Source of the DNA: Chrysophaeum taylorii
Lineage: Eukaryota > Sar > Pelagophyceae > Pelagomonadales > Pelagomonadaceae
Direction: 5' to 3'
Assembly (NCBI GenBank): GCA_029834535.1
Contig: JAQMWT010000164.1
Coordinates: 1-64,000 of the forward strand
DNA length: 64,000 nt
The position numbers and the translations under genes were made by a program. Position 1 is the first letter of the stretch, and every line of letters begins with the position of its first letter. Positions 10,402-48,631 of this stretch are shown one piece after another. The notes under the pieces were generated by a model, which saw only the letters and a list, made by a program, of their open reading frames with translations, did not search any database and was not told the DNA's origin.

Positions 10402-11043
10402 GTGCTCGTCGACGACGACCTGAGCTTGCTTCGTGGCGACTTCTTCTCGGCTTCAGTTCATTGCTACGTGTTCGGTTCGTTATCGTTTATCATGTCCTCG
10501 ATCGAAATTAAGGATAGCAAGCTTTCGCAAAAACTCGATGCCTTCAGTGGTGAGCGACATCTTTTTCACCAATGGACCCGGCGCCTGGAAAACATGATCA
10601 TTTCCACCGGTGATCGCATTATCTTGACCACTGACACTTGGACTAGCATTTCCGCCTCTGGCTGCTCTGAATAAGAATTTGGTCTCAAGCAGCAACGCTG
10701 GTACAGTGCACTCTTCATGGCGCTACCAATGCATGATACTGATCGTGCGGATATCCGTGAAAACCGCGATATGAACTTCACGCGGCTTTACAAGCGCATT
10801 ACTGATGTTTACATGGGTCATGGAGATCGTGTCGCTCAGTCTGCAATTGCTTCACTGCATTCCTTTGTGTGCAACAATATCGATGAACTTGAGTCTTTTC
10901 TTAACAAGCTCATCACTGGTGTTCAAGTTGCTCGGCATCATCAAGATGTCCCTGATGCACATGCATTGCAATTGCTTCAGACGAAAATCCCCGACTCGAT
11001 CTTGTCTAAGGATCTCATTGCACTTGATCCTAATTGCGCACAT
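10402..11043 (+). pseudogene. Copia gag, N-terminal part (in-frame stop at 10672-10674)
   Basis: A Copia-type Gag start is recognisable: an MSSIEIKDSKLSQKLDAFSG-like opening at 10492, then a WTRRLENMI segment. The frame is interrupted by TAA at 10672 and continues in the same frame with KQQRWYSALFMALP and LYKRITDVYMGHGD, as in UBN2-type Gag. Near 11040 it shifts to the next frame. The capsid-like function is inferred from family position. Confidence 0.75.
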
Positions 11044-12275: not shown

Positions 12276-12294
12276 TCCTTGTGCGTTTCCCGCT

Positions 12295-13980: not shown

Positions 13981-15382
13981 CTCTGGCCGCTTCAAATCGT
14001 ACAAGGCCCGCCTTGTCGTCCGCGGTTACACCCAGGTTCACGGCATTGATTACCATGACACCTACTCACCGGTTGCCAACATCGTCACGATCCGTTTCTT
14101 TCTAACCTTTGTCGCTGTTCATGACTGGGATTTGCACAAGTTGGATGTCAGCTCCGCTTTTATTCAAGCTCCCATGGACGAAGACATCTATGTCTGGCCA
14201 CCCGAAGGCTATGCTCCTCGCCAACCCACCGATGGTTCCAAAATCGTTTACAAGCTCCGTCGCTCTTGGTATGGTTGCAAACAAGCTTGTCGCAATTGGT
14301 GGCTTTATTTGGAACGCTTCCTTCTCAATGATTGTGGCTTCGTCCGCGGATCTGGTGACACTTGCCATTACAAGCTCGTGCTCAATTCTACCGTTGTGCT
14401 CCGTCTCGTTTTGGTCGTTGATGATCTTCTTGTGGCGCACCCTCGTCATTGCATTGGCCATTACCAAGCCTTTTTCCTCCGTTTCCGCGCTTTCACTGAC
14501 GTCAATGAACTTGATCTCACCTCTTACGTTGGTCTTCGCATTACGCGTGATCGCCCTAGGAGAACCCTCACTCTTGACCAATCCCATGCTATCCGTGAAA
14601 TCCTTACCGAACATCGCTTCATCAACAGTAAACCCGAACTCACTCCCGCTCCCAAAGGTCTTCATCTTTCTGCGGCTGATTGTCCTACTCCTGGTTCTCC
14701 AGATCACATTTTCATGACACGCATCCCTTTTCGCCGTATTGTTGCCTGTGTCCTCTTCATCTCCATCATGACCCGCCCTGATATCACTTGGTCCGTCAAT
14801 CAGTGCGCGCGTTTTTCCCACAATCCTGGTAAACCCCACTGGCACGCTTTATCCCACACTCTGCGTTATCTCAACGGTTCTCAGGATCTTGCCCTTATTC
14901 TTGGTCGCGATTCTACCCTTCGTCTCTGTGGTTATTCCGACTCCAGCTGGGCCGACGACCCTGATGACCGCCACTCTACAACTGGTTTTTGCTTCCTTCT
15001 CGCGGGCTCTATGATAGCCTACTGCTCCCGCTCGCAATACTTACTTGCTCGCTCTTCTTTTGAAGCTGAATTGCTTGCTCTTTACGCTGCTACTGCTGAG
15101 CTCTCTTGGCTTCTCAAACTTTTTGATGACTTTGATCTCCCTCGTCACACAGTCCCAATGTATGTTGATAATAGCACCACCGTCACCCAAGTTCGTCTCC
15201 AATGTCTCACACGACGCACCCGCCATATAGACATTCGCTTTTACAGTACCGCCGAATATCATCGCAACCACATCATTGATCTCAAACACATACCCCGCCT
15301 TCACAATCTTAGCGACATTTTCACCCGCAGTACGGAAGCTCCTTCCTTCCTCCGGCTTCGTGCTCTTTACCTCACTTCGTGA
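13886..15382 (+). pseudogene. Copia reverse transcriptase and RNase H
   Basis: Reverse transcriptase (RVT_2 type) is recognisable from KARLVVRGYTQVHGIDY and KLDVSSAFIQAPMDEDIYV. The catalytic box is VVDDLLV in place of YVDDLL, and GFVRGSGDTCHY precedes it. RNase H follows with DSSWADDPDDRHSTTGF and SSFEAELLALYAATAE, and a C-terminal HIDIRFY segment typical of the family. The domain block is itself intact. It joins the integrase frame only through a frame change near 13960. Confidence 0.9.
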
Positions 15383-24310: not shown

Positions 24311-24461
24311 TTCTCGAGATTTGTGGACGATGCTAGCGGTAAGCGTCGTCTAGATCAACTCCTTGCGGGTGGCAGCGTGCTGTTCTGCGGCAGCGCGCCT
24401 CGCCCGAGATTATTCGAGATTATTCGGCGGCGGATCTTTGCGGACCCGCGGCCTTCGGCAC

Positions 24462-24801
24462 TGTGGCGTAAGGGAATTTATGCCTACCTGGCTCACCTTC
24501 AAATCTAGGCTCGCCGCTCGCGTCCGTGCCCTTGATCGAGTCACTGGACGTGGAAGGCCGTTCGCTCGCCACACAACCACAAACAACTTCCGTGCCTGGT
24601 CCTCACAAATTGAGGATCGGCTGTTGCTTTATGACTAAGATACTCTCGAACCACAGAAATCTTCAGGGTGACGTATGTCACGGAAAAGGAAGATGATGTC
24701 ATAGAGAAAACTGACATCATCAGAACGGAGCAGGGTGCCCCCTGATAAGGGGGGGGGGCTCTAGGAGGGGTAAGCCTTAGAAGGCGGGAGTTTCCGCCAC
24801 A
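24462..24801. repeat. Diverged solo LTR of the Gypsy family (340 bp)
   Basis: Aligns end to end with the LTR at 24973-25310: starts TGTGGCGTAAGG, ends TTTCCGCCACA. It has many substitutions, so it is older than the neighbouring copies. The flanking 5-mers do not match, so no target duplication is left or the ends are slightly misplaced. Confidence 0.82.
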
Positions 24802-24933
24802 GAGGCGCCTTCCATTGGGTTCGCATACCTCCTCTGCTTGAACTGCTGTCGGAATGTGTTGTCCAATCTTGGCTTTTGGATGGGAGCGCGCCCTCGCACC
24901 AGCGTCCGGAATGGGCGCGTCCGGATCAGTTCC

Positions 24934-24972
24934 TGTGGCGTAAGGAGAATTTTAGGGGCTACCTGGCGTGCC
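24934..24972. repeat. Left fragment of the older solo LTR hosting the Gypsy insertion
   Basis: 39 bp, from TGTGGCGTAAGGAGAATTTT to the target site GTGCC. Together with 35267-35570 it forms one complete LTR. The outer duplication GTTCC is at 24929-24933 and again at 35571-35575. Confidence 0.88.
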
Positions 24973-25310
24973 TGTGGCGTAAGGAGACTTTTAGGGGCTA
25001 CCTGGCGTGCCTTCGAATCCTGGCTCGCCGATCGCGTCCGTGCCTTTGGAGGGATCACTGGACGAGGATGGCCGTTCTCCCGCCACGCGACCACAAACAA
25101 CTCCTGCGCCTGGTCCTCTCAACTTGAGGATCGGCTGTTGCTTTATGATCAAGGATATATCGAAAATCAGAAATCAGGGTGACACATGTCACGGAAAAGG
25201 AAGATGATGTCATAGAAAACTCAGACATCATCGGAACGGAGTAGGGTGCCCCTGATAAGGGGGGGCCCTAGAAGAGGGGTAAGCCTTAGGAGGCGGGAGT
25301 TGCCGCCACA
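24973..25310 (-). repeat. Gypsy 3' LTR (338 bp)
   Basis: TGTGGCGTAAGG...GTTGCCGCCACA on the plus strand, with TGTGGC/GCCACA inverted termini. It has the same length as the 5' LTR, with about four substitutions between them. Confidence 0.93.
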
Positions 25311-25350
25311 GGACTTCCCTGGTAAGAATTCGAGCTGCCCCAGCGAGGTG

Positions 25351-26739
25351 CTAGCGCGAGGAACGCGGCTTCGCCTTACGAGCATCTCGTGAACGAATCT
25401 TCTGATAAACGCGGGTGATGATCGGTTCAGGAACTCGACCACTGCGTAAAGTAAACTTGGGGACCAACACGTCAATCTCGTGCGGAGCGAAATCCGTGAC
25501 ACAAGGAGTTGTGTTGGAGGAAATTCGGGACTTGTCGGTGAAACTTCGACCTTCAACGTCCTTGAATTCGGGCTTGAGCTTGCGGTGCGAAAGGTGAGAG
25601 GTCGGCTTGACATAAGCGACATCATCGTTCGGACCCAAATCGGAATAGAAATGTAGAGCAACACGATCATTTTGGTAATCGTAAGGCTCGTAAACTTCGG
25701 CAACATAAATCTTCTTGCGCCAATCAGAGCGCTTCCGGTTAGGAATCCGGAAAACAACAAACTTACCGTGCTGATAATCATCACGGAAGGTTTCTTCGGG
25801 TTTGCGGATGGTTTGATCAACGATCGGAGGTACCATTATCGGCGTGATCTGACTTACATGAACACGCCGCTCTTCGGGCGGAGAGTCGAGAGACTCAATC
25901 CTATAGGTGACCGGGGAGAGGCGTTCCTTGATAATAAACGGCCCTCGCCATTCCGGTCGAAGTTTGTTCTGAAGGAAAGGGATGTAGAGCAAAACGTGCG
26001 ATCCTTCCTTGTATTCAACATCAACATGATCAGCATTGTAAGCCAATCGCTGTTTCTTCAAAGCTTTATCACGAGCCTCGCGGACGATCTTTGTATAATA
26101 TTTCAATCGTTCGCGAGTCTCGGCGACTGCATCAGAGCGAGTCTTCGGCAATAATCGTGTATCAAAATCCATGAGCGTGTAGTCAGTCGGTAGCATCGGC
26201 TGACGGTTCAGGCGTAGCATAAAGGGAGAAATCTGCGTGCCTGGAATAAACTTGCGGTTATAGCAAAACGCAATATAATGGGCAAAGTCAGGCCAATCCG
26301 TGATGTTCCGGCCTTGAAGGCAAGCACGGAGGAAGGCCTTGATAAATCGGTTGACGCGCTCAGCCGGGTTCGACTGGGCATGATAAGGAATCGTAGTTTG
26401 GTATCGGGTGTTAAAGAGATGGCAGAACTCGCGCATCAACTTGTTCACGAACTCTTTACCGTTGTCGGTACGAATCATCTGGGGCAAGTAGCCCTTGAGG
26501 AGAATGTTAATGACAAAAGACTCGAGGACAGACTCAGCAGTCTTATCATTCAAAACATCCAGAATCAAGAAATGCGAGAACGGATCAAAAAATACTAGAA
26601 GATACGTCTCGGGACCAGCGCTGGGCAAGGGTCCAAATAAATCCATGCAAAGAACAGCACCATCACCATCGTAGACGGGCTGCTGCAAGAGTCCAGCTCG
26701 TTTCGGCTCAGGCGTACGAGCTTCTGACAAACTAAGCAT
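25351..26739 (-). CDS. Gypsy integrase core and C-terminal domain (frame-shifted from upstream pol)
   Basis: 462 open codons. The DDE catalytic core is visible: Asp in VLCMDLFGPLP, Asp in MIRTDNGKEF and Glu in SNPAERVNRF. A GPY/F module follows (RPEWRGPFIIKERLSPVTYR, about residues 265-285). After it comes a segment GKFVVFRIPNRKRSDW...VALHFYSDL, resembling chromo/BAH-like tails that guide some Gypsy integrases to chromatin; this last point is inference. The zinc-finger part lies in the next upstream ORF in another frame, with the change at about 26735. Confidence 0.87.
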   Translation of the reverse strand: MLSLSEARTPEPKRAGLLQQPVYDGDGAVLCMDLFGPLPSAGPETYLLVFFDPFSHFLILDVLNDKTAESVLESFVINILLKGYLPQMIRTDNGKEFVNKLMREFCHLFNTRYQTTIPYHAQSNPAERVNRFIKAFLRACLQGRNITDWPDFAHYIAFCYNRKFIPGTQISPFMLRLNRQPMLPTDYTLMDFDTRLLPKTRSDAVAETRERLKYYTKIVREARDKALKKQRLAYNADHVDVEYKEGSHVLLYIPFLQNKLRPEWRGPFIIKERLSPVTYRIESLDSPPEERRVHVSQITPIMVPPIVDQTIRKPEETFRDDYQHGKFVVFRIPNRKRSDWRKKIYVAEVYEPYDYQNDRVALHFYSDLGPNDDVAYVKPTSHLSHRKLKPEFKDVEGRSFTDKSRISSNTTPCVTDFAPHEIDVLVPKFTLRSGRVPEPIITRVYQKIRSRDARKAKPRSSR

Positions 26740-27509
26740 TCAGCAATGAAGACTCCAACTTCGTTCGACATGTGAGGCCACCAAAATCGTTCTTGGATAG
26801 CCTGGACGGTACTGTGACGTCCCATATGACCACCGTTAACCGGAGTGTCATGATAGAGTCGAATAATGCGTTTGCGCAACGTAGCAGGTGCAACAATCAT
26901 CGGGTGCGAATCAGCAGAAATGCGGTAAAGAACATCTTTAACGACTTCGAATCGGTCGTTCGCTCGAGAACGTCGCGGCGCCTGACCTTGGGCCATTCGG
27001 TAGCGAATATCCTCGTACGTAGCATCAGATTCTTGCTCACGTGCGATCTCAGCGAGCGTCATATTATCGGGTATCGTATCGATATACTCTTTGTAAGCGG
27101 CTGCGTCCTTGAAGATCTGTGGCTCATCACGCGCACGGTTCTTCCGACGTTGTCTCGTAGCGTGAGACGTAGCCAATTTCATCGGATCCTTTTCAGGGTC
27201 TTCGTCTTCGTCTTCCGGCAGTTCGGTCGTAATAAACGACATTATGAAGTGGCAGCCGGAGACGGGAAATCCTCGGTCATCAACAGGTCGGGGAAGCTCG
27301 TGGAACACTAAATAAGCGTGGTTCAAAGGTTCTCCAAACTCGTCAGTCTCGATGACATGATCTATCGGGTTGCGGGAGAGACAGTCAGGGATACTCATTC
27401 CCGGTGACTTTCCCGGCTTGTAACCAAGTTCAGGGTCAAAATTGGCGAGGCGCATCGCCCAACGAGCAAGCTGCCCAGACGAGTGCGTCGCCTTACGTAA
27501 AAACGTCAA
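26595..27509 (-). CDS. Gypsy RNase H end and integrase zinc-binding domain
   Basis: Begins with the end of RNase H and the tether (FLRKATHSSGQLARWAMRLA, then YKPGKSPGMSIPDCLSR). Later comes the H2C2 zinc finger of integrase (GGHMGRHSTVQAIQERFWWP and AECLVCQK). It follows the main pol ORF after a one-base frame change near 27515 and loses the frame again near 26735, after which its last 25 residues are non-homologous. The middle (about residues 85-160) is a charged spacer. Confidence 0.82.
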   Translation of the reverse strand: MTFLRKATHSSGQLARWAMRLANFDPELGYKPGKSPGMSIPDCLSRNPIDHVIETDEFGEPLNHAYLVFHELPRPVDDRGFPVSGCHFIMSFITTELPEDEDEDPEKDPMKLATSHATRQRRKNRARDEPQIFKDAAAYKEYIDTIPDNMTLAEIAREQESDATYEDIRYRMAQGQAPRRSRANDRFEVVKDVLYRISADSHPMIVAPATLRKRIIRLYHDTPVNGGHMGRHSTVQAIQERFWWPHMSNEVGVFIAECLVCQKLVRLSRNELDSCSSPSTMVMVLFFAWIYLDPCPALVPRRIF

Positions 27510-30500
27510 AATTTCGGTGATCGGTCTCCAAAACAGTCCGGTGCCCTTCGATGTAGGCTCGAAAGTGCTCTAGAGAAAGTATAACTGCCAGCAGCTCTAG
27601 CCGACGGGGCTCATAATTCCGCATCTCCTTCGGCACAGCTCGGCTCCAGTATTCAATTACTCGTTCTTCTCGAGTCACTCTTCCGGCATCGTCCTTGACT
27701 TCGACAATTTGGAAGAGATATGCTCCAAGTCCATCCTTGGAAGCATCGGATCGGATCTGAAAAGGCAGATCATAATCGGCGTGGTAGACTCCACGGGAAT
27801 CAACCAAAGCTTCAATAATCGTATTCCAAGCTTTCTGACACTCGGGCGTCCACTCAAACTTTACACCTTCGAGGCATAATCGTCTCAGCGGTTCCACAAT
27901 CTTCGAGTAGCCCTTCACATATCGCCGGCAGTAATTACTCATGCCGATGAAAGAGCGTATCTGGGTCTTCGGGGAAGTATTCGGTAAAGTACCTGGAATC
28001 GGCATCTTCTGCAGTGCTTCCAGCGTCTTCGGATTCGGCTTCAAGCCTTCTGGGGTAGAAATGTGTCCCAGAAATTCTATATCATCCTTGAGAAGGTGGA
28101 ACTTCGCGGTTCGACCGCTGTACCCTCTCTGTGCCAAGTGACACATCACTTCGATCAAAACTTGTAAATGTCGATGAAGATCGTCGGATCCCATCATAAT
28201 ATCGTCAACAAACGCAACCAAGTCTTGATACATCCATTTCGAAAGGTCGCTCGCCATTTGCTTGCAGAAAAGAGCTCCGGCCGTCTTCACACCTAGAGGT
28301 AATCGCAAGAAACTATGAGCGCCAAGTGGGCTAACCATCGTGACAGCGTCCTGCGCTGCCGGATCCAAACGAAGGTTGTGGTATCCCCATCTAATATCGA
28401 TGCATGTCCGCCATCGTCTCATCGCGAGAAAGGCTAAAGCATCATCTTGTCGAATGTTTGGCCAACTGTCATTGACCAATTGATCGTTGAGCTGACGTAA
28501 GTCAACTGCAGCACGGAACGCGTTTGACGTTCCAATCTCAGCTCCTTTCTTCGGAAGCATCAACACAGGAAAGCCCCAAGGTGATTTGGCCGGACGAATG
28601 ACTCCATCCCGGCACCACTCGCTGATCTGCTTGCGGAGACAATCGAGCTTCGCAGGCGTCAATCGGTAGGGCGTCATCTTAATCGGTCGCGGATTCGCGT
28701 CTTTGAATCGTAGAGACACAGGAGGCGAGTCCACAGGTCTCATAATCGGGTCGAAAAAGGCCCAAGAATATTGCACACAGTGACGGAGCATCAGTTTCGC
28801 CTCGTCGTCTAAGTGCGGATTGTCAGGAATTCCCAGCTCCTGCACAACCTTGTCAACTTCTTCCTTTGTAGGAATTTTAACTTTCATTGCTTCGTTGTTC
28901 TTGACATGCTCAGGAGTCTGCGGCAGTGGTGCACCCTCGGCATCGCGCGGCGCATCTCTCCATGGCACATCGAACTTTTTCTCGTATTTTAGTTTCACTT
29001 CCGGGTGGCTTTTGTTGATCCTCTCGCCTTTGACACGAACACTCGGCTCGCTCTTAATCTTCGGTTCCCGATCTCGCTCAGGATCTGGCGGAACGTCTAA
29101 ATTTAGTTGTCGGGGGGGCCCAGCAGAAGAAGCATGAGACGCCCCCGGCTCATCTGTTGCAGGCGGAATCAACGGTACCTCTGGAGGTTTCCATTTGGTG
29201 CGATCTTGAAGATCATCAGTCGACACCCATCTTATGACACGTGTGCGCGTGTTTAACAGCGGAACTTGTACGTGACGAAGGGTGGTTTCATCAATTTGTA
29301 AATAATAATCAAACGGTCGGTCTGCAGGACTCAACGCTGACGGCAAAGCTTCGCCGCTCAGGTGAAATTCCTTGGTCACAGAGTTGTGCAGATCGAGCAT
29401 TAATAAGGCCATCGTGTCAGGTGGCACGACGGACGCCAAGTGTTTCAACGAGGTCGTCCTGGCGAAGCCGGCCCAATCAAAATCAGGGGGCATCGTCAGC
29501 AACTCCGAAGTCATTTCCAGATTCAGAGATCTGTAATCGGAACGGTGCGGCCCTACGCGAAGCGGGACACGCGTAACAGTATAAGCTGCGTCTGTCGCGG
29601 CTCGTGATGATCCTAAATTGTTCATCTGAAGTAAATGTCGTTCGTCGGCGTAGCCAAGTGCGGCGGCGAACTTGTGCTGCATATTCTTGCAAGTCTTGGG
29701 AACTGCGCGCAAATGGAGCGGATGGCTGGAAACCAACAATCGCACGCGACAGCTCATCAAACTAGGAGTTATGTCGTAAAAATTGACGACGTAAACGTAA
29801 GGGTGCAAACGTGCAACGTAAGAAATAATCGAAGCCTCCTGCTCTATCAACCACATGAAGAAACCAGCCATCTTGCATAATTTCATCGTCCAGTGGGTAG
29901 CGGTGACTCCCTTCCCAACATCTCTGGAAGTCAAGTTGCACAGAGCGGAGTGTACGCAGGGTGGCGACGCGACACACATCGACGACGACCATTCCGCGTA
30001 GGGTAAATAAGATTCGATCAACCGTAAGGTTGTAACATAGCGACCACACAATGTGTGCTGCACCACAGGAATATTCGGAAAGTTCTTGTGGTGGATCTGG
30101 TTGGCGGTGTCCGACGCATCGAGTGCTAGCACGACTCGAAACGACGTCCCACACGTTTCGTTGGCTCGTTGGAGACCTAAAGTACTGCCTCCGGCTCCAC
30201 TGAACAGCATCACCACCTTGCGATAAGTGATTGGAAGCCATTGAACCTTTTCATATCGGCGGCGGATCTCCGCTTCGGTGATCTCGCGGCATTTCTTTTC
30301 ATCTTCTTCCGACCTTCGAGCGAAATCGTCGCTGCCTTCAGGTCGTTTGAGGGTGGACTTGTCCGTCATAGCGGTCATAGCGTCCTTCTGCACCGTGCTC
30401 AGCAGCATCGGCGGGGGAGATTCGTCGCATCGCGTCAAGTGACTAGCGACAGAAACGGTGAAAGAAAGGTTCCCCTTGTCGTATCCTTCTTCACATTCTT

Positions 30501-31986
30501 TCGTAAGTTCGTTGATCGTAGAGACGTTCAACTCATCTTCGTACCTAACGATATCACCAATCGCAAGGGCTTCGCCTTGAGTGACGATCGTCGGCACTTC
30601 TTCCGTGGCAGTAACTGCCACCCGAGCAGCGGACCGGTCGCGCTCTTCGCAAGAAGAACACATTCCTTCGACAACTCCCAACTGCTCGTTCTCAGCAAAC
30701 GTAGCGACGAAAACCTGTCCTTTTTCCATAGGCGACAAAATAACCGGTAGATTGTACGTTCGACCGGGCTCGATTTGAAGCGTGCGCGCGGCATAAGCGA
30801 TTACTTCTCGCGCGTCTTCTCCCGGAGCTGGGGAGAATTTGGTCGTAGCATGTCCCCGCGTAGCCATGGCTACCTTACGTTCCGGCGGCGGGCTTCGGAG
30901 ATCTTTAATCGTGCTCAAACGAGCATAAACTCGAGTCTTGACCAGGTCGAGACTCTGCCGAAAGGCATCGTGTTGATGATTGTAAATCGGTACGGTTATC
31001 GGATTTCGATCGTAAATAGACCGAAAGGTCACGATTGGTGCATCGACTCGTTCATCCTTAACTTTAATCTTCTTGCGCCCGTAGACGACTTGGGTTCGAC
31101 AAAAACAGATCCGATCATGGGGAAAATCCACGATGGCTCCTAAAATTCGTATATCGCGCCCCCCCAACAGGAACAAGTAATTCGTATCGGCTACAATAGC
31201 GACAATGGGGGCAGCGAAGTCGTCGGCGAAAGCGACCCGAAGGGCGATCCAACGATGGATCGTCGTCGTATTCAATCCTGATCCGTACAGCTTGCGCTTA
31301 ATCGGAAGTTCGCCTTCATCGAAAATCAACTGATCTTTGGTCAACTTTTTGACCATTTCTCGGCAAATATAAGAAACATCGGCCATTCCATCGACACCGA
31401 TGGTCGTCGAGAATTTCGGACCGTCACGATTCCTGTAGATGTGACAGGCCATAAACGTTAGAGAACCCGTATCTAAACAACTGAGGGTAATCAAATCATC
31501 TTCGATCGTCTTGCCGTCTCGCGGCGTCAACGAAGTGTGAGCACATCGGGCTCTGATTCGCTCATCTCCGGGGTTGGGCATCGATACCGCGGCTTGAGCT
31601 TTCGTATTATCTGTTGTTGGCTTCCTAGCCATAACGCTCGCGGCAGCCTCTTTATCTGGCGGCTTCCGCTCTTCCTCCAAGACAATCTCAGAGGGAATCA
31701 GTGTTGGTAAGGGATCCTGGTCTTCGTGGTTCACGGAAGCAAAGGACCCCTCCCATAAATCATTCATTTCGTCTTTCCAGAATGCATCTGTAAATCCATT
31801 CGTCGCCTGCTGATCCTCATCAGCATCGGCGATCGGTTCCGTGTCAGCTGCGGCTTTGAGTCTGCAGCTGCGCGGTTGTTCTGGTGTCTTCTTTAGCAAG
31901 AAATTCCGGGCTTTCGTCCACCAATCCTGCAGGTTCCACGTCTGCTCGTCTTCGTCACACATGAGAACGCTGCTAATCTTCTTCAT
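27493..31986 (-). CDS. Gypsy pol: protease, C5-cytosine methyltransferase, reverse transcriptase, RNase H
   Basis: 1497 codons from ATG 31986. Residues about 185-280: retropepsin-like fold with TTIGVDGMADVSYI where DSGA is expected, and LLGGRDI. Residues about 583-872 (plus 29370-30240): C5-MTase motifs in order: I FSGAGGSTLGLQRA, II VLALDASDTANQIHHKNFPN, IV ASPPCVHSAL with the catalytic Cys, VI-like IEQE, VIII-like SCRVRLLV, IX-like SLNLEMTSELLTMPPDF and X-like VVPPDTMALLM. Residues about 1085-1350: RT with the FVDDI active site (about 28205). RNase H follows (RSDASKDGLGAY, PRRLELLAVILSLEHF, ETDHRNF). The frame ends where RNase H passes into another frame. A methyltransferase in this position could modify element or host DNA; that role is inferred. 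Confidence 0.88.
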   Translation of the reverse strand: MKKISSVLMCDEDEQTWNLQDWWTKARNFLLKKTPEQPRSCRLKAAADTEPIADADEDQQATNGFTDAFWKDEMNDLWEGSFASVNHEDQDPLPTLIPSEIVLEEERKPPDKEAAASVMARKPTTDNTKAQAAVSMPNPGDERIRARCAHTSLTPRDGKTIEDDLITLSCLDTGSLTFMACHIYRNRDGPKFSTTIGVDGMADVSYICREMVKKLTKDQLIFDEGELPIKRKLYGSGLNTTTIHRWIALRVAFADDFAAPIVAIVADTNYLFLLGGRDIRILGAIVDFPHDRICFCRTQVVYGRKKIKVKDERVDAPIVTFRSIYDRNPITVPIYNHQHDAFRQSLDLVKTRVYARLSTIKDLRSPPPERKVAMATRGHATTKFSPAPGEDAREVIAYAARTLQIEPGRTYNLPVILSPMEKGQVFVATFAENEQLGVVEGMCSSCEERDRSAARVAVTATEEVPTIVTQGEALAIGDIVRYEDELNVSTINELTKECEEGYDKGNLSFTVSVASHLTRCDESPPPMLLSTVQKDAMTAMTDKSTLKRPEGSDDFARRSEEDEKKCREITEAEIRRRYEKVQWLPITYRKVVMLFSGAGGSTLGLQRANETCGTSFRVVLALDASDTANQIHHKNFPNIPVVQHTLCGRYVTTLRLIESYLPYAEWSSSMCVASPPCVHSALCNLTSRDVGKGVTATHWTMKLCKMAGFFMWLIEQEASIISYVARLHPYVYVVNFYDITPSLMSCRVRLLVSSHPLHLRAVPKTCKNMQHKFAAALGYADERHLLQMNNLGSSRAATDAAYTVTRVPLRVGPHRSDYRSLNLEMTSELLTMPPDFDWAGFARTTSLKHLASVVPPDTMALLMLDLHNSVTKEFHLSGEALPSALSPADRPFDYYLQIDETTLRHVQVPLLNTRTRVIRWVSTDDLQDRTKWKPPEVPLIPPATDEPGASHASSAGPPRQLNLDVPPDPERDREPKIKSEPSVRVKGERINKSHPEVKLKYEKKFDVPWRDAPRDAEGAPLPQTPEHVKNNEAMKVKIPTKEEVDKVVQELGIPDNPHLDDEAKLMLRHCVQYSWAFFDPIMRPVDSPPVSLRFKDANPRPIKMTPYRLTPAKLDCLRKQISEWCRDGVIRPAKSPWGFPVLMLPKKGAEIGTSNAFRAAVDLRQLNDQLVNDSWPNIRQDDALAFLAMRRWRTCIDIRWGYHNLRLDPAAQDAVTMVSPLGAHSFLRLPLGVKTAGALFCKQMASDLSKWMYQDLVAFVDDIMMGSDDLHRHLQVLIEVMCHLAQRGYSGRTAKFHLLKDDIEFLGHISTPEGLKPNPKTLEALQKMPIPGTLPNTSPKTQIRSFIGMSNYCRRYVKGYSKIVEPLRRLCLEGVKFEWTPECQKAWNTIIEALVDSRGVYHADYDLPFQIRSDASKDGLGAYLFQIVEVKDDAGRVTREERVIEYWSRAVPKEMRNYEPRRLELLAVILSLEHFRAYIEGHRTVLETDHRNFDVFT
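29370..30240 (-). other. Cytosine-5 DNA methyltransferase domain within Gypsy pol
   Basis: Sub-feature of the pol ORF, about 290 residues. Motif I (AdoMet-binding FSGAGG) is at about 30183-30206, the catalytic Pro-Cys (SPPC) at about 29960, and a motif IX-like block at about 29475-29530. The ENV of motif VI is EQE, keeping the Glu. The target-recognition region between motifs VIII and IX is about 65 residues, short compared with large DNMTs. Its frame is uninterrupted over the whole domain. Confidence 0.82.
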
Positions 31987-34463
31987 AAATCTATCCTTTT
32001 CTTCCGGCGGCGCGTATCCGTGTCTCGATCCGTAGTAATCGAAACCGTTTCGGGGGGGTCCGCAGGAAAAGATGGCGTCGTCCCCGACGTCAACTCTGTC
32101 GTAAAATCGTCGTCTGCAATACTCGCGCTTGTCATCGTCTCGTCAGTCGAATGCGCGCACGAGCTATCACTGCAGAAATTCATGTCTGGCTCACAGCCAG
32201 TTCGGTCGCCATCGGTCGTCTCTGGAGGGTCCAAAGATAAGCCGATGGCATCGAGGGCTTCCTCATCAAAAATAAACGGTGGGTCGTCCGTGGACGACTT
32301 GTCAAATAACGTTAACGCGGACACTGGTTCAAAAAGTGTAGCTTCTTCATCTTCCGAATCTGAATCGCCTTCCCAGTATCGTGGAGCTTCAAGTTCCTCG
32401 CTCGAATCTTCGAGCTCATCGCTCGACATCTGCTCATAAATCTGAGCTAAAGACCGACGATTGGTCAGCACGTCGTTGGGTGGCTCGTCCATCAGTGGGC
32501 GAGCGAGATCTTCGAATGCGGCCGCGGCAAGGGCGTCGGCTGCGTCGTCGGTGCGGGTGTCCGTGTTCGGGTACACCGTCACTCCTAATGGTAACTGTTG
32601 ACCGCAAGGGGTCGTAAATGCGAGCGTTGCGCTCAAAAAACTCAAATTATATTGGTGTCGGCCTTCGTCGTATTCGTCGTCGCGCGATCGGCGTCGTCTG
32701 TGCCGGCGCGAACTTCGACTGGGGCTCTTGTTATCTTTGTCTCTCTCTGGCGTCAGTTCGGCAGGTCCTAGTACCTCTGGATCGTCCCTGTAGGCGACTG
32801 GTGCTCCCAAGTCTATCCGAACCGGCTCAATCGTCTCGTCTATCGAAACATCGACGCCTTCGTCGTCTTCTTGCCAAAACTCCGACCAAACGTAAATTAA
32901 ATCTCGGTTGGCAAATAAATCCGTGCCTCGGGGTCGGAATTGTACTTCTTTCCGCTCTAGCGGTTTCTTCCTCAGGAAACATTGAGCTCGTATCCTTATC
33001 GTCGGTACGCTCATCTTCCTATTATCCATGCTGATCGTCCCATCCAAATTCGGTTCCGGGCGGCAGCTATACTCATCCCTCATAGTATGTTCGGGATCTT
33101 TCTTTATCACGTAGCCATCATCATATGCAGGCTGAAAATCTTTGAACTCTTCGTTCGTGAGTAATACGCCAGGGCTTTCACTGAGCTCCAAAGGCAGTTC
33201 ATGCGTTATAAGATTCTTCATCTCTTCCGCTTTCGTATTCATTTTCTCGGCCGTTTCACTCGGCCTCTCATCCACTCCATCGCTTTGAATATCGGCAATC
33301 GCCTCGTCACTAAAAATGTCGGCACACAAATTGTCTGCCATCGTCAAAGGGAATAAAACATCTGCAAAAACGTCTGCAGTCGGTTCGTCGGGGGGGGCTG
33401 CAAAAGAAGAAGGCGTCGTCCCCGACGTCATATCTGTCAAAAACTGGCCACCAAAGGGCACGTGACGTTCGATGGGTGTGTACTCAGGTGCGCGCTTATC
33501 ATTCGAGGTAATCCTCTGCGACGCATCGTCGATCGATCGTGGAGGCGACGTGCCATCCACTTGAATGTTCGGAGGTAAACTCATAGCATCGAGCGTAGCA
33601 GCGGCGGGTCCCTTACTTTGGGCGTCATCGGCTGCACGGGGCTCGTAAATCGGATTCACACATAACTCCGGCGCGTCGTCAAGACCGAGGGTTGTGTCAG
33701 CTGACGACAAATCATGTCGTGCCACCAACGGTGACACCGGGTTAGAAGCGATTGTCGGCTTCGATCCGTAGTTTAACGACGTTTCGGTCGAATTCTTCGA
33801 TTCTGTGGGGATTTTGGTTTGGGTGAGCTCCTTCGACTTGGATTGCTCTTGATCGTAGTTTAACGACGTTTCGGTCATCTCGGACGACTCGTCGTCGTCG
33901 TCGCGCGGCTTCCTAACTTTCGCTCGCGTTCGCGTGGGCGGCGGTACCTCCGAAGGTCGGAATTCTCCCTCGAGACTGTTCGCTCGCCTCGGGCGATTCG
34001 GCATACGCAATTCATCTCTTTCACGTGTCAACGCGCTTGCTTGATCTTGGAGGGCGTCTGCTCGAGCATTGGCCATACGCAGTTGCTCTCGCACAATTTT
34101 TATCTCCTTCCGGTGTAGCCGTTCTTTTCGTTCGTTCTCTTCCCCTATTTGTTTTAAAAGTCGTTCTTGCGCGCGTTCGTTCTCTTCGCGTAATGCCCGC
34201 AAGTGAGCCTCGTAGAACTCATTCATTTTCATTGCATCCGGGGGTTCTGCACGCGTTGACGGAGCTGTCGATCGTCCTCCCGCCGTTCTCTCCGTGGGCT
34301 TGCCGTAGTTGTAGTTTAGCTCTTCTTCCTCGTCAACTTCTGTATCGTGCTCTTCTTCATCGTCATCATTATCATCATCATCATTCCGCTCGTTCGTCTC
34401 ATCCTGACGGCTTGGCGGTTCTTCATATCGTAGCTGCTCGACGGCAGCATCATCGTCTTCCAT
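31983..34463 (-). CDS. Gypsy gag-position ORF, acidic and coiled-coil, no zinc knuckle seen
   Basis: 826 residues from ATG 34463. The N-terminus is highly acidic (a run of Asp/Glu at residues 25-50). A charged coiled coil follows at about residues 80-155 (LREENERAQERLLKQIGEEN; LTRERDEL). Next is an Arg/Ser/Thr-rich region with a repeated ETSLNYG/ESKNSTETSLNY element (about residues 196-232). The rest is acidic, with two copies of a DDF(T)-TSGTTPSF-PPDE/P-like block (about residues 345-360 and 800-810). I see no CCHC box or capsid motif, so the Gag assignment rests on position. Its stop overlaps the pol ATG as ATGA, a stop-start arrangement. Confidence 0.75.
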   Translation of the reverse strand: MEDDDAAVEQLRYEEPPSRQDETNERNDDDDNDDDEEEHDTEVDEEEELNYNYGKPTERTAGGRSTAPSTRAEPPDAMKMNEFYEAHLRALREENERAQERLLKQIGEENERKERLHRKEIKIVREQLRMANARADALQDQASALTRERDELRMPNRPRRANSLEGEFRPSEVPPPTRTRAKVRKPRDDDDESSEMTETSLNYDQEQSKSKELTQTKIPTESKNSTETSLNYGSKPTIASNPVSPLVARHDLSSADTTLGLDDAPELCVNPIYEPRAADDAQSKGPAAATLDAMSLPPNIQVDGTSPPRSIDDASQRITSNDKRAPEYTPIERHVPFGGQFLTDMTSGTTPSSFAAPPDEPTADVFADVLFPLTMADNLCADIFSDEAIADIQSDGVDERPSETAEKMNTKAEEMKNLITHELPLELSESPGVLLTNEEFKDFQPAYDDGYVIKKDPEHTMRDEYSCRPEPNLDGTISMDNRKMSVPTIRIRAQCFLRKKPLERKEVQFRPRGTDLFANRDLIYVWSEFWQEDDEGVDVSIDETIEPVRIDLGAPVAYRDDPEVLGPAELTPERDKDNKSPSRSSRRHRRRRSRDDEYDEGRHQYNLSFLSATLAFTTPCGQQLPLGVTVYPNTDTRTDDAADALAAAAFEDLARPLMDEPPNDVLTNRRSLAQIYEQMSSDELEDSSEELEAPRYWEGDSDSEDEEATLFEPVSALTLFDKSSTDDPPFIFDEEALDAIGLSLDPPETTDGDRTGCEPDMNFCSDSSCAHSTDETMTSASIADDDFTTELTSGTTPSFPADPPETVSITTDRDTDTRRRKKRIDL

Positions 34464-34928
34464 ATCGGCTCTGGCTCGTTCTAGTCGGCCGAGATCAGAG
34501 CGGGTCCAAAATGGTTGAGTCGTCGTCGTTCTCGTGCTCCTTCGGCTCTGGAACTTCTAATCGTCCACGACACGCGTAATATCGTCGTTGCGTGCGTCTT
34601 CCACCGACAAATCTATCCGTACGGTGGGCGGCAGAACTCGTCTCTGCCCGGCAAACAATGCCTTATCCGTGAGTTGCGATCTCACTCCGCTCGCCTGCGG
34701 CAGCGGTACCCGGGTTGCGCGTCGGTTAGCACCAAATCGCGCGTCGTCACTTCCGACGACTAACGTATCCGGCCGGGGAACTTTCCCACTGTAATGGTCC
34801 TTCTGGAATTCCTTGTCGGCGCGCTTGATCAGGGCGCGCACGGCTTGTCCGGACCGTGTAGAGAATGCAAGATGCACTAGTTCGCTGCGACCGATATAGT
34901 CGCTCGAATCTCGTATTCCTCCACCACC
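34464..34928 (-). other. Gypsy leader between 5' LTR and gag
   Basis: About 465 bp on the 5' side of the gag ATG. A 106-codon frame (34557-34877, minus) is open but has no recognisable domain. The stretch holds the primer-binding site and presumably the packaging signal; the latter is inferred. Confidence 0.5.
34904..34926 (-). other. Gypsy primer-binding site
   Basis: Two bases inside the 5' LTR, the minus strand reads TGGTGGAGGAATACGAGATT. The plus strand therefore looks like a tRNA 3' end: a TCGAATC T-loop-like piece, an acceptor strand and a terminal CCA. The match would extend past 20 nt, longer than the usual 12-18. Which tRNA is used cannot be told here. Confidence 0.6.
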
Positions 34929-35266
34929 TATGGCGTAAGGAGACTTTTAGGGGCTACCTGGCATGCCTTCGAATCCTGGCTCGCCGATCGCGTCCGTGCC
35001 CTTGGTGGGATCACTGGACGAGGATGGCCGTTCTCCCGCCACGCGACCACAAACAACTCCTGCGCCTGGTCCTCTCAACTTGAGGATCGGCTGTTGCTTT
35101 ATGATCAAGGATATATCGAAAATCAGAAATCAGGGTGACACATGTCACGGAAAAGGAAGATGATGTCATAGAAAACTCAGACATCATCGGAACGGAGTAG
35201 GGTGCCCCTGATAAGGGGGGGCCCTAGAAGAGGGGTAAGCCTTAGGAGGCGGGAGTTGCCGCCACA
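34929..35266 (-). repeat. Gypsy 5' LTR (338 bp)
   Basis: Same length and sequence as the LTR at 24973-25310 apart from about four substitutions, one of them in the terminal dinucleotide (TATGGC instead of TGTGGC on the plus strand, at 34930). Confidence 0.92.
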
Positions 35267-35570
35267 GTGCCTTCGAATCCTGGCTCGCCGATCGCGTCCG
35301 TGCCCTTGGTGGGATCACTGGACGAGGATGGCCGTTCTCCCGCCACGCGACCACAAACAACTCCCGCGCCTGGTCCTCTCAACTTGAGGACCGGCTGTTG
35401 CTTTATGATCAAGGATATATCGAAAATCGGAAATCAGGGTGACATGCGTCACGGAAAAGGAAGATGATGTCATAGAAAACTCTGACATCATCGGAACGGA
35501 GTAGGGTGCCCCTGATAAGGGGGGGGCCTAGAAGAGGGGTAAGCCTTAGGAGGCGGGAGTTGCCGCCACA
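35267..35570. repeat. Right fragment of the older solo LTR
   Basis: Begins with the target duplication GTGCC and continues TTCGAATCCTGG... to GCCGCCACA at 35570. It completes the LTR started at 24934-24972 and is followed by the outer duplication GTTCC. Confidence 0.9.
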
Positions 35571-36719: not shown

Positions 36720-39700
36720 ATGGCAGTGGTGGGAGCGATGATGCTGCTCATGCTGGGTATCGTGGGGGCCCACCCCAACGACCTCGATTGCGACCGGGTG
36801 CTAGGCGTCGGAGAGACGATCATGTTTCAGACCTCCGAGGCAAGCACGGATCGATTTGGAATTTTCGAACGCAGCGGCGTCGAAATCTCCTGCGGCGGCA
36901 CGTATGTCGCCGGCGAGACGCTGACGGCCAAGCTCGACGACATCACCGATGCCGAGTACGTGATGGAACTGACCGGGGCGACCTTCACGGAGGAGTGCGA
37001 CGACGGCTGCGACACGTCGAGATGCGGCGACATCGCGCCGAGCGGCGACGGTCACGAGGTGACGGCGCCGACCGACGGCTCTGACATCACGTTGGTGATC
37101 GGGTGGGCCGCCGGCTTTAGCACCGTCTACATCACCGATACGTGTACCCTCACGGCAGAAGCCTCGGATGATCCCGCGACCGACGACCCCGCGACCGACG
37201 ACCCGGCGTTGGACGTGAGCAGTATTTTTGGTTACCTCGTCGACGTATTGTGTTGGGAGCTCGAAAACCACATTGCTGTGGATGGCGCCGACCTTCTTAA
37301 CAGTCCCGAGGATCACACGATCCACTGCATGCGCGACATCCAGGAATGCCGCGACAGCGGGTTTGGGGTTTTGGTGAAACAGGCGGACGGTACCTACGAT
37401 CTCGCGTACGCCTTCGACGAGGCTGGGAACGCGGCGGCGCTGGCGCTCGTCGACGAGACTGATCTCATCGACAACGTGACGGTGACGGTGTCGGGTGTGG
37501 AGACGGGGTCACTGGTCACCGATTTTTCGGTTCCCGAGTTAACGCAGGTCAGCATCCGGCTCCACGAGACGATCTCGCACACGGGCTTTCTCGTCGACAT
37601 CCTGTGCTGGGAGCTCGAAGGCCACGTGGCCATCGACGGCGCCGACCTCGACGAAAACCCCGAAGACCACTCGATCCACTGTATGCGCGATATCCAGGAA
37701 TGTCGCGAGAACGGCCACGGCATTCTCGAGCTCACCGAGGACGAGTGTGGCTACGATCTGGCTTACACCTTCGACTCGGCCGGCAGCGAGCTCGCCCTCG
37801 CGTACGTCGACGCCACCGACAAAATAGACAACGTCATCGTTACCGTCACGGGAGAGCGCGACTCCGATGGGATTATGTATGTGGAGACTTTGGTGGAAGA
37901 GAGCCATCAGATTCACGAGGGATACCTCGTCGATCTCTACTGCTGGAACCTCGAGGGTCACATCGCCTTCGACGGCGCCGACCTCGTCAACTCGCCCGAG
38001 GACCACTCGATCAAGTGCTTCACCGACGTCCCTCAATGCCGCGTCAACGGGTTTGGGCTGCTCCAAGACGAGGACGGCGACGGAAGGTACAACCTCACCT
38101 TCACTTTCGACTCGGGCTCTGACCAGACGGTCTTGAATTTCATCGACAACGCGACCATCGCCGACACGGTGTTCGTGCGCGTCGCCGGGACCCCGCAGGC
38201 AGCCGACGCGACGATTCTCGAAGACGTAAGCATCGACCTGGTGCCGCACGAGTGCGATGCTGTTGCCGCGGGGGATGATGTCACGGTTACCGGCTTTTTG
38301 GTGGATATCTTGTGTTGGGAGCTCGAAGACCATATTGCTGTGGACGGCGCCGACCTCCTCAACAGCCCCGAGGACCACGATCCACTGCATGCGCGATATC
38401 CAGGCCTGCCGCGACAGCGGGTTTGGGGTTTTGGTGAAGCAGGCGGACGGTACTTACGATCTTGCGTACGCCTTCGATGAGGCTGGGAACGCGGCGGCGC
38501 TGGCGCTCGTCGACGAGACTGATCTCATCGACAACGTGACTGTCACCGTGACGGCGACGGCTACGGGGTCCCTGGTCACAGATTTCTTGGTGCCCGAACT
38601 TACGACGGTTAGCATCCGGCTCCACGAGACGATCTCGCACACGGGCTTTCTCGTCGACATCCTGTGCTGGGAGCTCGAAGGCCACGTGGCCATCGACGGC
38701 GCCGACCTCGACGAAAACCCCGAAGACCACTCGATCCACTGTATGCGCGATATCCAGGAATGTCGCGAGAACGGCCACGGCATTCTCGAGCTCACCGAGG
38801 ACGAGTGTGGCTACGATCTGGCTTACACCTTCGACTCGGCCGGCAGCGAGCTCGCCCTCGCGTACGTCGACGCCACCGACAAAATAGACAACGTCATCGT
38901 TACCGTCACGGGAGAGCGCGACTCCGATGGGATTATGTATGTGGAGACTTTGGTGGAAGAGAGCCATCAGATTCACGAGGGATACCTCGTCGACCTCTAC
39001 TGCTGGAACCTCGAGGGTCACATCGCCTTCGACGGCGCCGACCTCGTCAACTCGCCCGAGGACCACTCGATCAAGTGCTTCACCGACGTCCCTCAATGCC
39101 GCGTCAACGGGTTTGGGCTGCTCCAAGACGAGGACGGCGACGGAAGGTACAACCTCACCTTCACTTTCGACTCGGGCTCTGACCAGACGGTCTTGAATTT
39201 CATCGACAACGCGACCATCGCCGACACGGTGTTCGTGCGCGTCGCCGGGACCCCGCAGGCAGCCGACGCGACGATTCTCGAAGACGTAAGCATCGACCTG
39301 GTGCCGCACGAGTGCGATGCTGTTGCCGCGGGGGATGATGTCACGGTTACCGGCTTTTTGGTGGATATCTTGTGTTGGGAGCTCGAAGACCATATTGCTG
39401 TGGACGGCGCCGACCTCCTCAACAGCCCCGAGGACCACACGATCCACTGCATGCGCGATATCCAGGCCTGCCGCGACAGCGGGTTTGGGGTTTTGGTGAA
39501 GCAGGCGGACGGTACTTACGATCTTGCGTACGCCTTCGATGAGGCTGGGAACGCGGCGGCGCTGGCGCTCGTCGACGAGACTGATCTCATCGACAACGTG
39601 ACTGTCACCGTGACGGCGACGGCTACGGGGTCCCTGGTCACAGATTTCTTGGTGCCCGAACTTACGACGGTTAGCATCCGGCTCCACGAGACGATCTCGC

Positions 39701-42156
39701 ACACGGGCTTTCTCGTCGACATCCTGTGCTGGGAGCTCGAAGGCCACGTGGCCATCGACGGCGCCGACCTCGACGAAAACCCCGAAGACCACTCGATCCA
39801 CTGTATGCGCGATATCCAGGAATGTCGCGAGAACGGCCACGGCATTCTCGAGCTCACCGAGGACGAGTGTGGCTACGATCTGGCTTACACCTTCGACTCG
39901 GCCGGCAGCGAGCTCGCCCTCGCGTACGTCGACGCCACCGACAAAATAGACAACGTCATCGTTACCGTCACGGGAGAGCGCGACTCCGATGGGATTATGT
40001 ATGTGGAGACTTTGGTAGAGGAGAGCTATCAGATTCACGAGGGATACCTCGTCGACCTCTACTGCTGGAATCTCGATGGTCACATCGCCTTCGACGGCGC
40101 CGACCTCGTCAACTCGCCCGAGGACCACACGATCAAGTGCTTCACCGACGTCCCTCAATGCCGCGTCAACGGGTTTGGGCTGCTCCAAGACGAGGACGGC
40201 GACGGAAGGTACAACCTCACCTTCACTTTCGACTCGGGCTCTGACCAGACGGTCTTGAATTTCATCGACAACGCGACCATCGCCGACACGGTGTTCGTGC
40301 GCGTCGCCGGCACCCCGCAGGCAGCCGACGCGACGATTCTCGAAGACGTGAGCGTCGACCTCGTCCCCCAATCCGGGTGCGACGCGAGCCTCGCGCCGAC
40401 TGCCACCGCGTGCAGCGCCTTTCCGTCGGACGACCCCGAATTCGAGCACATGGCGTCCCTCGACGCGAACGTACTCTTGTACTGGACGATCGAAACCGAA
40501 GGAGACGAGGACGACAGCTTCTATCCCGCCATCCGTGCGTCGGTCGCGAAAACCGGGGACGGATGGGTATCTCTCGGGTATTCGCTCGACGAGTTAATGG
40601 AAGGCAGCTTCGCGGTCCTGAGTACGGACGGCGCAGCCCCCGAGAAGTACGAACTCACGGGCCGAACGGTACCCGTGCTGATGGACGCCGAGTTCCAGAC
40701 TCTCGCGGACGCGACTACTTCGGTCGTCGACGGCAACTTGGTCGTGTCGTTTACCAAGACGCTCGCGGAAGCCGGGGAGGTGGAGATCGAGGCGTCGGGG
40801 ACCACCTGGGGCTACTTCTTGTTCGCGTACGGCGACGACTCGCTCGCGTACCACGTCGGCAGCCGCGGCGCGATCCAGATCGACCTCTCCCCCGTATGCG
40901 ACCCTTCGGCGACTCCTGCTCCCACGCCGGTCTCGGCGGCTCCCACGTCCGCGGCGACCTGCGAGTCCGACGACCCCGACTACGACTTTGCTCTGCCCAT
41001 CGACGGATCCTTCACCTTTTACTGGCGCGTCCTCGAGGACGGCGACGAGGAAGACGACTTTTACCCCGCGCTTCGGGGTCGGTTTCTCTTGGCGGGCGGC
41101 GGCTACGCCGCGCTGGCCACTTCGACCGATACGGCGATGCCGGGCTCGGACGCGATCATCGGCATCGACGACGCAGTCCCCGAAAAGTACGAGATCACGG
41201 GTCGCACGCTCGACTCGGTCTCGGCGCGATCGGCTTCGCAGCAAACCCTCGTCGACGCCTCGTGCTCTTCGATCGACATCGATGGCCAGTCCTACCTCGA
41301 CTGCCGCTTCGTCAAAGATATGGTCGAAGACGGCGAGATCGAAATCCTCGCCTCGGGCATGAACCAGTTTGTCTGGGCGCGCGGCTCGGGCTCCCTCGCG
41401 TACCACCAATCTGACCGCGGCGCCCTGACGTTGGACCTCTCCTCCTGCGCGGCCTCCGCCCAGTCGCTCAAACCCGTATCCTCGTCGGCCATCAGGATCC
41501 ATGGTCGTTTTATGATCGCCGCGTGGGCCTACTGCGCGCCCGTCGGGGTTATCTTCGCGCGCGCCAAGCACGCGGCCCTCCGCGCCGGCTTCTTCAAGAC
41601 CTGGCTCTACCTCCACATGTTCGTCCAGCTCATGGCCCTAATCATGACGGCCGTCGGCTTCGCCAAGGCCTACGAGGCGATCAAGGATGCCGACGTCGAC
41701 ATCGACCACCTCACCTACAGGCACCCCAAGCTCGGGGTTGGCGTCATGATCAGCGGCTGCGTCCAGCTCCTGATGGGCCTCCTCCGTCCGCACCCCCCTC
41801 ACAAGGGCGAGGCCAAGTCCATTCAGCGCTGGATCTTCGAGGGTTTGCACCGTCTCTTCGGCTACGGCGGTATCGTCCTCGGCGTGATCACCATGCTCTC
41901 GGGCATCGAGAAAGCCATGGAACTCGACCACATCGCCGCGCAACGTCCGTGGAACACTGCGGTCATCGCGCCCGTCGCGACCACTGTCTTCGTCCTCGTC
42001 GTCACCACCGTCTACATCTACTTGACCACGCCCGCGGCAGACACCTCCGAATCCTCGTCCTACGCCGACGTCGAAAAGGCTGTTGCCGAGAAGGTCGACG
42101 CGCCGCAGGAGGCCGAGATGGTCGAGGCCAAAAACAACGACGACAAGGGCGTGTAA
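36720..42156 (+). CDS. Secreted/membrane redox protein: nine tandem Cys/His domains, two DOMON domains, cytochrome b561 (one frameshift)
   Basis: Starts at ATG 36720 with a signal peptide (MAVVGAMMLLMLGIVGA). About 150 residues with a CGGTYVAGETL core follow, then nine copies of a roughly 115-residue domain: G[FY]LVD..CW.LE.H...DGADL..[NS]PEDH[ST]I.C......C..[NS]G.G followed by Y.L...FD.AG. Two DOMON domains follow (about 40430-40890 and 40970-41450, each with FYPA[IL]R and S.AYH...RGA). Last is a b561 core with four spaced His (RIHGRF, YLHMF, RHPKLG, LHRLF) and about five membrane spans. Known DOMON-b561 proteins move electrons across membranes from ascorbate-type donors; the repeats presumably bind metal or a cofactor. 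A 2-bp deletion at 38378, relative to two sister copies, breaks the frame (a first ORF to 38480, a second from 38257). It is either an assembly error or a real null. Confidence 0.85.
37218..38275 (+). repeat. Coding super-repeat unit 1 (domains A1-B1-C1)
   Basis: Three related but distinct domains, starting FGYLVDVLCW (A), HTGFLVDILCW (B) and HEGYLVDLYCW (C). Domain A of this unit is more diverged from A2/A3 than B1 and C1 are from their counterparts, marking it as the founding copy. Confidence 0.9.
38276..39335 (+). repeat. Coding super-repeat unit 2 (A2-B2-C2), with the 2-bp deletion
   Basis: Nearly identical to unit 3 including silent sites, with a period of 1062 bp once the deletion at 38378 (GACCACGATCC against GACCACACGATCC) is counted. 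Confidence 0.92.
39336..40375 (+). repeat. Coding super-repeat unit 3 (A3-B3-C3), intact
   Basis: Matches unit 2. C3 carries a few changes near its start (ESYQI, NLDGH) and leads into the DOMON part through a Cys-containing linker. Confidence 0.92.
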
Positions 42157-48416: not shown

Positions 48417-48631
48417 TTGGCTTGTTTTGAGAAACGTCCTTTGAAGAAGAAGAAGAAGAAGGAGAAGAAGTATAATAACCTATAGGAGACATTAAAAAAA
48501 GAATACAGAAGAAGAAGAAGAGGAGATTCGAAAGGAATGTAACGGACGTAGTGGCAAGGAGTGGATGAGATGACGTGATAGAGGGACGTTAGTGACTCTA
48601 CGACAACTGGAGGACCCTCCAGTTGCGAGTT
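48417..48631. promoter_or_regulatory. Short upstream region of the Ca2+ pump gene with GAA microsatellite
   Basis: Purine-rich: GAAGAAGAAGAAGAAGG near 48444-48465 and a second GAAGAAGAAGAAG near 48507. It is all that separates the inverted Helitron-like copy from the ATG at 48632. No defined promoter element is recognised. Confidence 0.4.

Follow-up and report, generated by a model that had tools for sequence, protein, structure and literature searches.

A cytosine-5 DNA methyltransferase (C5-MTase) domain was found to be built into the Pol polyprotein of a Ty3/Gypsy-type LTR retrotransposon in the window (the whole stretch of 64,000 nucleotides of Chrysophaeum taylorii DNA that was analysed). 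Both the identity of the domain and its conservation are solid. We consider it somewhat probable that an old Ty3/Gypsy clade took up one C5-MTase and kept it, and that the protein is a working enzyme acting on the element's own cDNA.

Structure of the element in the window

The whole element lies on the minus strand at 24973..35266 and was delimited by its LTR pair, a 5-bp duplication, comparison with the empty site and its domains. The 5' LTR (34929..35266, minus strand) and the 3' LTR (24973..25310, minus strand) are 338 bp each and identical at 334 of 338 positions; the 4 differing positions agree with the recent insertion claimed in an earlier note on this DNA, which was made from the sequence alone. 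The target-site duplication GTGCC is present on the left (24968..24972) and on the right (35267..35271), and together with the direct 338-bp LTRs it identifies the element as an LTR retrotransposon. When the flanks were joined without the element, the resulting empty site equalled the family LTR at 327 of 338 positions, so the element is inserted in an older LTR of its own family, split into pieces at 24934..24972 (minus strand, defined by comparing the empty site with the LTR) and 35272..35570 (minus strand). What looks like a tandem LTR at the element's 5' end results from this insertion, and true tandem LTRs were thereby ruled out. Another older LTR copy of this family lies at 24461-24802 and is approximately 83% identical to the LTRs of the element.

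Along the minus strand the order is ORF1, protease-like stretch, MTase, reverse transcriptase (RT), RNase H, H2C2 domain, integrase core and p58-type end. ORF1 (31983..34463, 826 aa) occupies the gag position and has no Pfam match. The pol ORF (27493..31986, 1497 aa) contains an aspartic-protease-like stretch (31102..31395, from VDGMADVSY; recognised by eye, with no Pfam match), the MTase, the RT core (28060..28554; RVT_1, E 3e-12) and most of RNase H (27502..27852; RT_RNaseH_2, E 3.9e-22). The pol frame breaks off at the end of RNase H; the integrase H2C2 zinc-binding domain (26721..26888, E 5.8e-18) is in a different frame, and the pol frame is regained before the integrase core (rve, 26380..26661, E 1.4e-12), which is followed by the p58-type C-terminal domain (25852..25944, E 2.1e-6), all on the minus strand. 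Because the frame is lost and then regained, the window copy is not intact as sequenced, with mutation, sequencing error and recoding as possible sources. Open frames around the MTase domain reach 3067 aa in other copies, compared to 1549 in the window. The end of ORF1 and the beginning of pol share four bases (31983-31986), perhaps because of recoding at this place or because a frame has been lost.

The Pfam domain order RT - RNase H - integrase fits Ty3/Gypsy, the upstream protease being placed by eye only. All 30 RT-region matches listed were RVT_1/RT_RNaseH proteins, most with integrase domains, and the RT tree was built without named reference elements. Ordinary nuclear-type genes surround the element, namely a family B DNA polymerase (3331-6660), a P-type cation ATPase (48623-51928) and a MutS homologue (55621-57813). 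At 37239-39737 three direct repeats, approximately 1060 bp apart and 74-91% alike, overlap a 1299-aa ORF with DOMON and cytochrome b561 domains.

Identity of the methyltransferase domain

The C5-MTase domain extends over pol residues ~585-877 (29356..30234, minus strand), as defined by profile, fold and alignment; residues 583-872 correspond to the coordinates of the domain as first noticed. The whole pol ORF screened against Pfam gave RT and RNase H, and PF00145 at E 5e-4 with 20 bits against a cut-off of 22, while the isolated domain (residues 571-910) matched PF00145 at E 1.4e-5 with 25.1 bits, above the 22-bit cut-off. This cut-off was passed by 11 of the 13 rows of the alignment of the domain alone (A1), and alignment of the MTase profile to PF00145 with hhalign gave E 5.6e-19. 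The earlier note had proposed a C5-MTase built into a Ty3/Gypsy polyprotein, to be judged by a significant family match, a predicted structure and sister copies; the observation is confirmed and its interpretation supported, the three checks having come out in its favour.

NCBIfam dcm was matched weakly by the isolated domain (E 0.0016, 18.2 bits, cut-off 100.65), and when the MTase region of the whole ORF was used as a protein query, none of 3074 candidates reached E<=1e-3. The closest full-length match of the MTase profile was a prokaryote-type PF00145 protein; its best PDB sequence matches were DNMT2-type tRNA methyltransferases (E 0.011, motif I only). In structure comparison with VIA-align, the predicted domain structure aligned with C5-MTase folds across nearly its entire length, the top-ranking folds being those of the DNA enzymes DNMT1, M.HaeIII and M.HhaI, and identities in the fold alignments with known C5-MTases were 10-18%. 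The Z of 20.4 obtained for DNMT3B does not discriminate for membership of the Dnmt3 clade.

The presumed catalytic residues (Cys107, Glu145, Arg177 and Arg179 in A1 numbering) are invariant in 13 of 13 A1 rows; in the window the corresponding motifs are at Cys677 (29956-29958), Glu715 (29842-29844) and R-x-R (29740-29748), all on the minus strand. The Cys of motif IV, the Glu of motif VI and the Arg pair of motif VIII were kept in 38 of 38 loci read, window copy included. The Pro before the catalytic Cys is present in 37 of 38 loci of the window family and is Ser or Asp in five relatives, motif VI is E-Q and not E-N in all A1 rows, the motif III acid is absent, and motif I is degraded in one relative (P0005). 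Because of these departures some clade members may be inactive. The stretch between motifs VIII and IX is short, which suggests a low sequence specificity.

Copies in the genome

The assembly holding the window (70.8 Mb, 697 contigs) was searched with the MTase protein, and at least 124 matches of 80-100% identity were found (124/124 scored, of 1039 candidates), placing the domain in at least 123 further places besides the window. Copy counts here and for the second family below are lower bounds (124/1039 and 68/830 candidates scored), and some contigs look like duplicates (C10/C297, C25/C521), which inflates them. The matched stretch was free of stops in 99 of the 124 copies and held stops in the other 25, stops only and not frameshifts being counted. 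Most copies (group A) are 92-100% identical to the window, a few are 86-91% and about twenty 80-83% identical. Eight divergent copies were read, seven of which (group B) are 79-82% identical and one (L056) 86%. L059, a more distant subfamily, likewise has the domain upstream of RT, with a single in-frame stop, and a locus chosen only by its RT (L058) also carries it. The RVT_1 matches on contigs C74 and C466 were considered as Gypsy elements lacking the MTase and rejected, being LINE-like by eye; neither MTase profile matched them. About eight RVT_1 matches, including the strongest of the genome, lie within ~46 kb on contig C696, which we guess to be an organelle genome with group II intron RTs.

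Selection on the domain

Ratios of dN/dS were calculated by the Nei-Gojobori method on 38 of the 124 loci, made up of the 30 best matches (window included) and the 8 chosen divergent copies; loci covering less than half of a stretch were left out, and L056, whose domain holds stops, was treated separately. The set leans towards well-kept copies. For pairs joining group A to group B, where dS is near saturation, the ratio was 0.059 for the MTase (210 pairs), 0.042 for RT (189 pairs) and 0.119 for the linker, i.e. the stretch between MTase and RT (203 pairs). Within group A it was 0.175 for the MTase (435 pairs), 0.220 for RT (351), 0.404 for the linker (406) and 0.437 for the protease region (300); by pair medians the values were 0.169, 0.108, 0.328 and 0.375 respectively, RT then being tighter than the MTase. 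Group B gave 0.151 for the MTase, 0.330 for RT and 0.385 for the linker (21 pairs each). For the window against L056 the ratios were 0.239 (MTase), 0.079 (RT) and 0.251 (linker), the MTase here showing no more constraint than the linker. Taken together, the MTase is constrained at the protein level about as tightly as RT and more tightly than the linker.

Relatives and phylogeny

Among the 30 proteins listed by the RT-region search, five carry the domain before RT, one from the MMETSP marine microbial eukaryote transcriptomes (P0005) and four from metagenomes (P0007, P0008, P0009 and P0011), and their RTs are 45-56% identical to that of the window. A profile of the six MTase bearers matched only those six among 34 proteins (E<=10), and the MTase was found with one RT lineage in six sources. 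Four proteins (P0006, P0010, P0012 and P0013) end too soon upstream to show presence or absence of the domain. In the RT tree of 31 rows, one clade with 100/100 support (stem 1.07) unites the eight MTase bearers, P0006 and P0010; beyond this clade no profile match was found, e.g. in P0015 despite 1276 aa before its RT. The MTase tree (eight rows) and the RT tree share the forks that are well supported in both (A+B; P0007+P0008); the deep forks of the MTase tree are weak, and the MTase diverges faster than RT. A single acquisition on the stem of the clade is the simplest reading.

P0006 is listed as a protein of a Planctomycetota MAG; its RT falls inside the clade, and it is probably a eukaryotic sequence in the bin. 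No confirmed relatives of the Gypsy MTase, or of the second MTase family described below, were obtained from viral contigs, and none were found in phage records.

Host genes and a second, Ty1/Copia family

When PF00145 was searched against the genome, a DNMT2-like gene (L001), a DNMT5-like gene (L002) and 55 other places were matched, both gene names being given by eye. A light-harvesting-like reading frame, also read by eye, adjoins the DNMT2-like gene. Derivation of the Gypsy MTase from either host gene was rejected, as profile similarity was absent or confined to motifs I-IV; great divergence could mask such an origin.

Six of the 55 places were read (L003-L008) and all belong to one other retroelement family. 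In its members (L003-L008, L039-L048 and L057) an MTase-like domain lies between a protease-like stretch, seen by eye, and the integrase, and a search with one frame of the family gave at least 79 matches (68 scored of 830 candidates). PF00145 was matched by 6 of 7 rows, with E 6e-8 in L042; the same locus has an rve-like stretch (E 0.004, under its own cut-off), and L057, a piece overlapping it, has RVT_2 (E 5.8e-39). Judged from these matches, the order, integrase before an RVT_2-type RT, is that of Ty1/Copia. The Copia MTase keeps PC and ENV with an odd motif I, and among 10 loci the Cys was kept in 10, the Glu in 9 and the motif VIII Arg in 9. Its core is not specially conserved by dN/dS, because the core gave 0.220, the next two stretches 0.172 and 0.228, and the integrase 0.105. 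The Copia profile (A2) aligned with ordinary MTases along 162 columns (E 3e-5, probability 73), and the predicted structure of the domain was uninformative (pLDDT 29.5). That the A1 and A2 MTases are one shared domain was rejected at an hhalign probability of 0.1, the A2 profile being weak (Neff 1.2). A Copia-type element in the window (10717-15382; gag_pre-integrase, SH3_retrovirus, RVT_2) was matched by neither MTase profile; Copia-type elements without an MTase thus also exist in the genome.

The Copia family with its own MTase is the most surprising by-product of the analysis. It is conceivable, and we put it forward only tentatively, that Gypsy and Copia superfamilies independently took up and kept C5-MTases in one host under a pressure that bears, in such algae, on incoming cDNA or RNA with unmethylated cytosine, and that the old and widespread Gypsy clade, with its drifted motifs (Ser/Asp-Cys, Glu-Gln), would constitute a retroelement-specific C5-MTase family with a substrate of its own, perhaps particle cDNA or an RNA:DNA hybrid, that standard polyprotein annotation has missed.

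Search for a methylation footprint

CpG observed/expected ratios were 1.31 for the element, 1.26 for the window and 1.18 and 1.32 for the flanks, and 1.28, 1.16 and 1.04 for group A, group B and Copia-MTase loci, respectively. Transitions were no more frequent at CpG sites (535/17935) than at other C/G sites (1183/35312), and C-to-T changes by sequence context gave no CpG excess in the window's group; they were raised at CT and CHG sites, a result not controlled for relatedness and set aside. A CpG footprint of self-methylation in this group was therefore rejected, with neither depletion nor transition excess. Stable CpG methylation of the copies is unsupported because the element's ratio is 1.31 against 1.26 and no transition excess was observed, and the result is evidence against CpG methylation that persists in group A copies, or at least against deamination in them. 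It may leave room for transient methylation of cDNA or for another target.

Proposed function and alternatives

Cytosine methylation usually works against transposons. If an old, clade-wide MTase is selected like the adjoining polymerase, methylation would instead serve these elements. In the explanation we favour, an old Ty3/Gypsy clade of microbial eukaryotes would have acquired one C5-MTase before diversifying, most like prokaryote-type enzymes, which was placed before RT and has been retained since. The MTase would act within Pol, or after release by cutting from it, and would methylate cytosines of the element's fresh cDNA ahead of integration; incoming DNA would then be spared foreign treatment or editing, or new copies would begin in a chosen chromatin state. 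We infer action on cDNA from the position of the MTase beside RT in Pol, and methylation of the element's own cDNA is the likeliest mechanism.

An active enzyme could also work on RNA or on an RNA:DNA hybrid (genomic RNA, tRNA primer or replication intermediate) and so steer packaging, priming or stability. The motif I matches to DNMT2-type tRNA methyltransferases and the absent CpG footprint in DNA would suit such a target, and RNA methylation was raised by de Mendoza et al. for SymbioLINE-Dnmt (PMC5890265, in the text retrieved), but with DNA enzymes ranking first in the predicted fold alignment and a prokaryote-type protein as closest full-length match we regard it as rather unlikely. A comparably low probability is given to a domain whose catalysis is lost or lowered and which persists in Pol for a structural or binding role, in nucleic-acid binding, particle assembly or integration targeting. 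Ser/Asp-Cys in five relatives, E-Q for E-N, the missing motif III acid, faster divergence than RT and the lack of a footprint are consistent with this, whereas the invariant Cys, Glu and both Arg are not demanded by binding alone.

The enzyme could instead serve cell defence in an accessory way, methylating DNA other than the element's, namely host chromatin around the insertion site or that of competing elements or viruses. Such a role has been proposed in general for retrotransposon-encoded DNA methylases (PMC6338049, in the portion retrieved) and would agree with the high copy number; the location inside Pol favours a role in replication, and we hold this target to be very improbable. The whole-ORF Pfam score under the curated cut-off would be expected if the motifs resembled a C5-MTase by chance or came from a single fusion event in the window copy alone, a notion refuted by the copies and relatives, as well as by selection, profile and fold, and to which practically no weight is given.

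The compact 71-Mb genome with more than 100 copies is a place where the effect of methylation could be measured by nanopore sequencing. MTase domains in long polyproteins fall below ordinary annotation cut-offs, and the phenomenon may exceed the few published cases; the high DNMT counts of algal genomes may likewise be transposon-borne.

Comparison with known systems

The earlier note rightly stated that capture of DNA methyltransferases by retrotransposons has published precedents in a few lineages of algae and dinoflagellates, and one of these reports concerns a Gypsy element (PMC5890265). As far as the retrieved text of that paper goes, de Mendoza et al. (2018) described SymbioLINE-Dnmt, SymbioDIRS-Dnmt3 and KnitGypsy-Dnmt3, found purifying selection and suggested cDNA methylation, which was argued to precede integration for the Symbiodinium DIRS elements. 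In the retrieved parts of the other sources, a 2025 DNMT survey (PMC12344493) repeats these cases and mentions Copia and DIRS, one sentence of PMC6338049 refers to DAM-/DCM-encoding Ty3/Gypsy and DIRS elements in Stramenopiles, red and green algae and charophytes, none described individually, and according to PMC12477816 a DNA transposon of Ectocarpus carries an N4/N6-type methyltransferase; the text available from PMC9998398 and PMC3145265 contained no further C5-MTase-bearing element. Open-access literature searched by title yielded no C5-MTase-bearing Gypsy clade outside Klebsormidium and no described C5-MTase-bearing Copia family, which is no proof of absence.

Compared to DNMT1, DNMT3, DNMT5, M.HhaI and M.HaeIII, the window domain has E-Q for E-N, no motif III acid and a short VIII-IX stretch, and is located inside a retroelement Pol. 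Ty3/Gypsy elements without the MTase (P0015, P0019 and P0020) share RT, RNase H, integrase and their order, but are unmatched by the domain profile. With KnitGypsy-Dnmt3 of Klebsormidium nitens the element shares a C5-MTase in the Gypsy Pol ORF, many intronless copies, kept key residues and purifying selection; in the retrieved text (PMC5890265), however, that MTase groups with Dnmt3, whereas the clade of the window family shows Ser/Asp-Cys and E-Q variants, and it is described from one charophyte with a DIRS-like repeat arrangement, whereas the LTRs of the window element are ordinary and its relatives come from several sources. The 30 RT matches listed included no K. nitens protein. SymbioDIRS-Dnmt3 and SymbioLINE-Dnmt of Symbiodinium are likewise retroelement C5-MTases of high copy number under selection, and the MTase of SymbioDIRS-Dnmt3 is likewise part of Pol and, in yeast, methylates CG (PMC5890265, same text); they belong to other retroelement orders (tyrosine-recombinase and LINE) than the Gypsy element of the window. 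Retroelement C5-MTases are thus already known as a kind, to which the present Gypsy clade is an addition.
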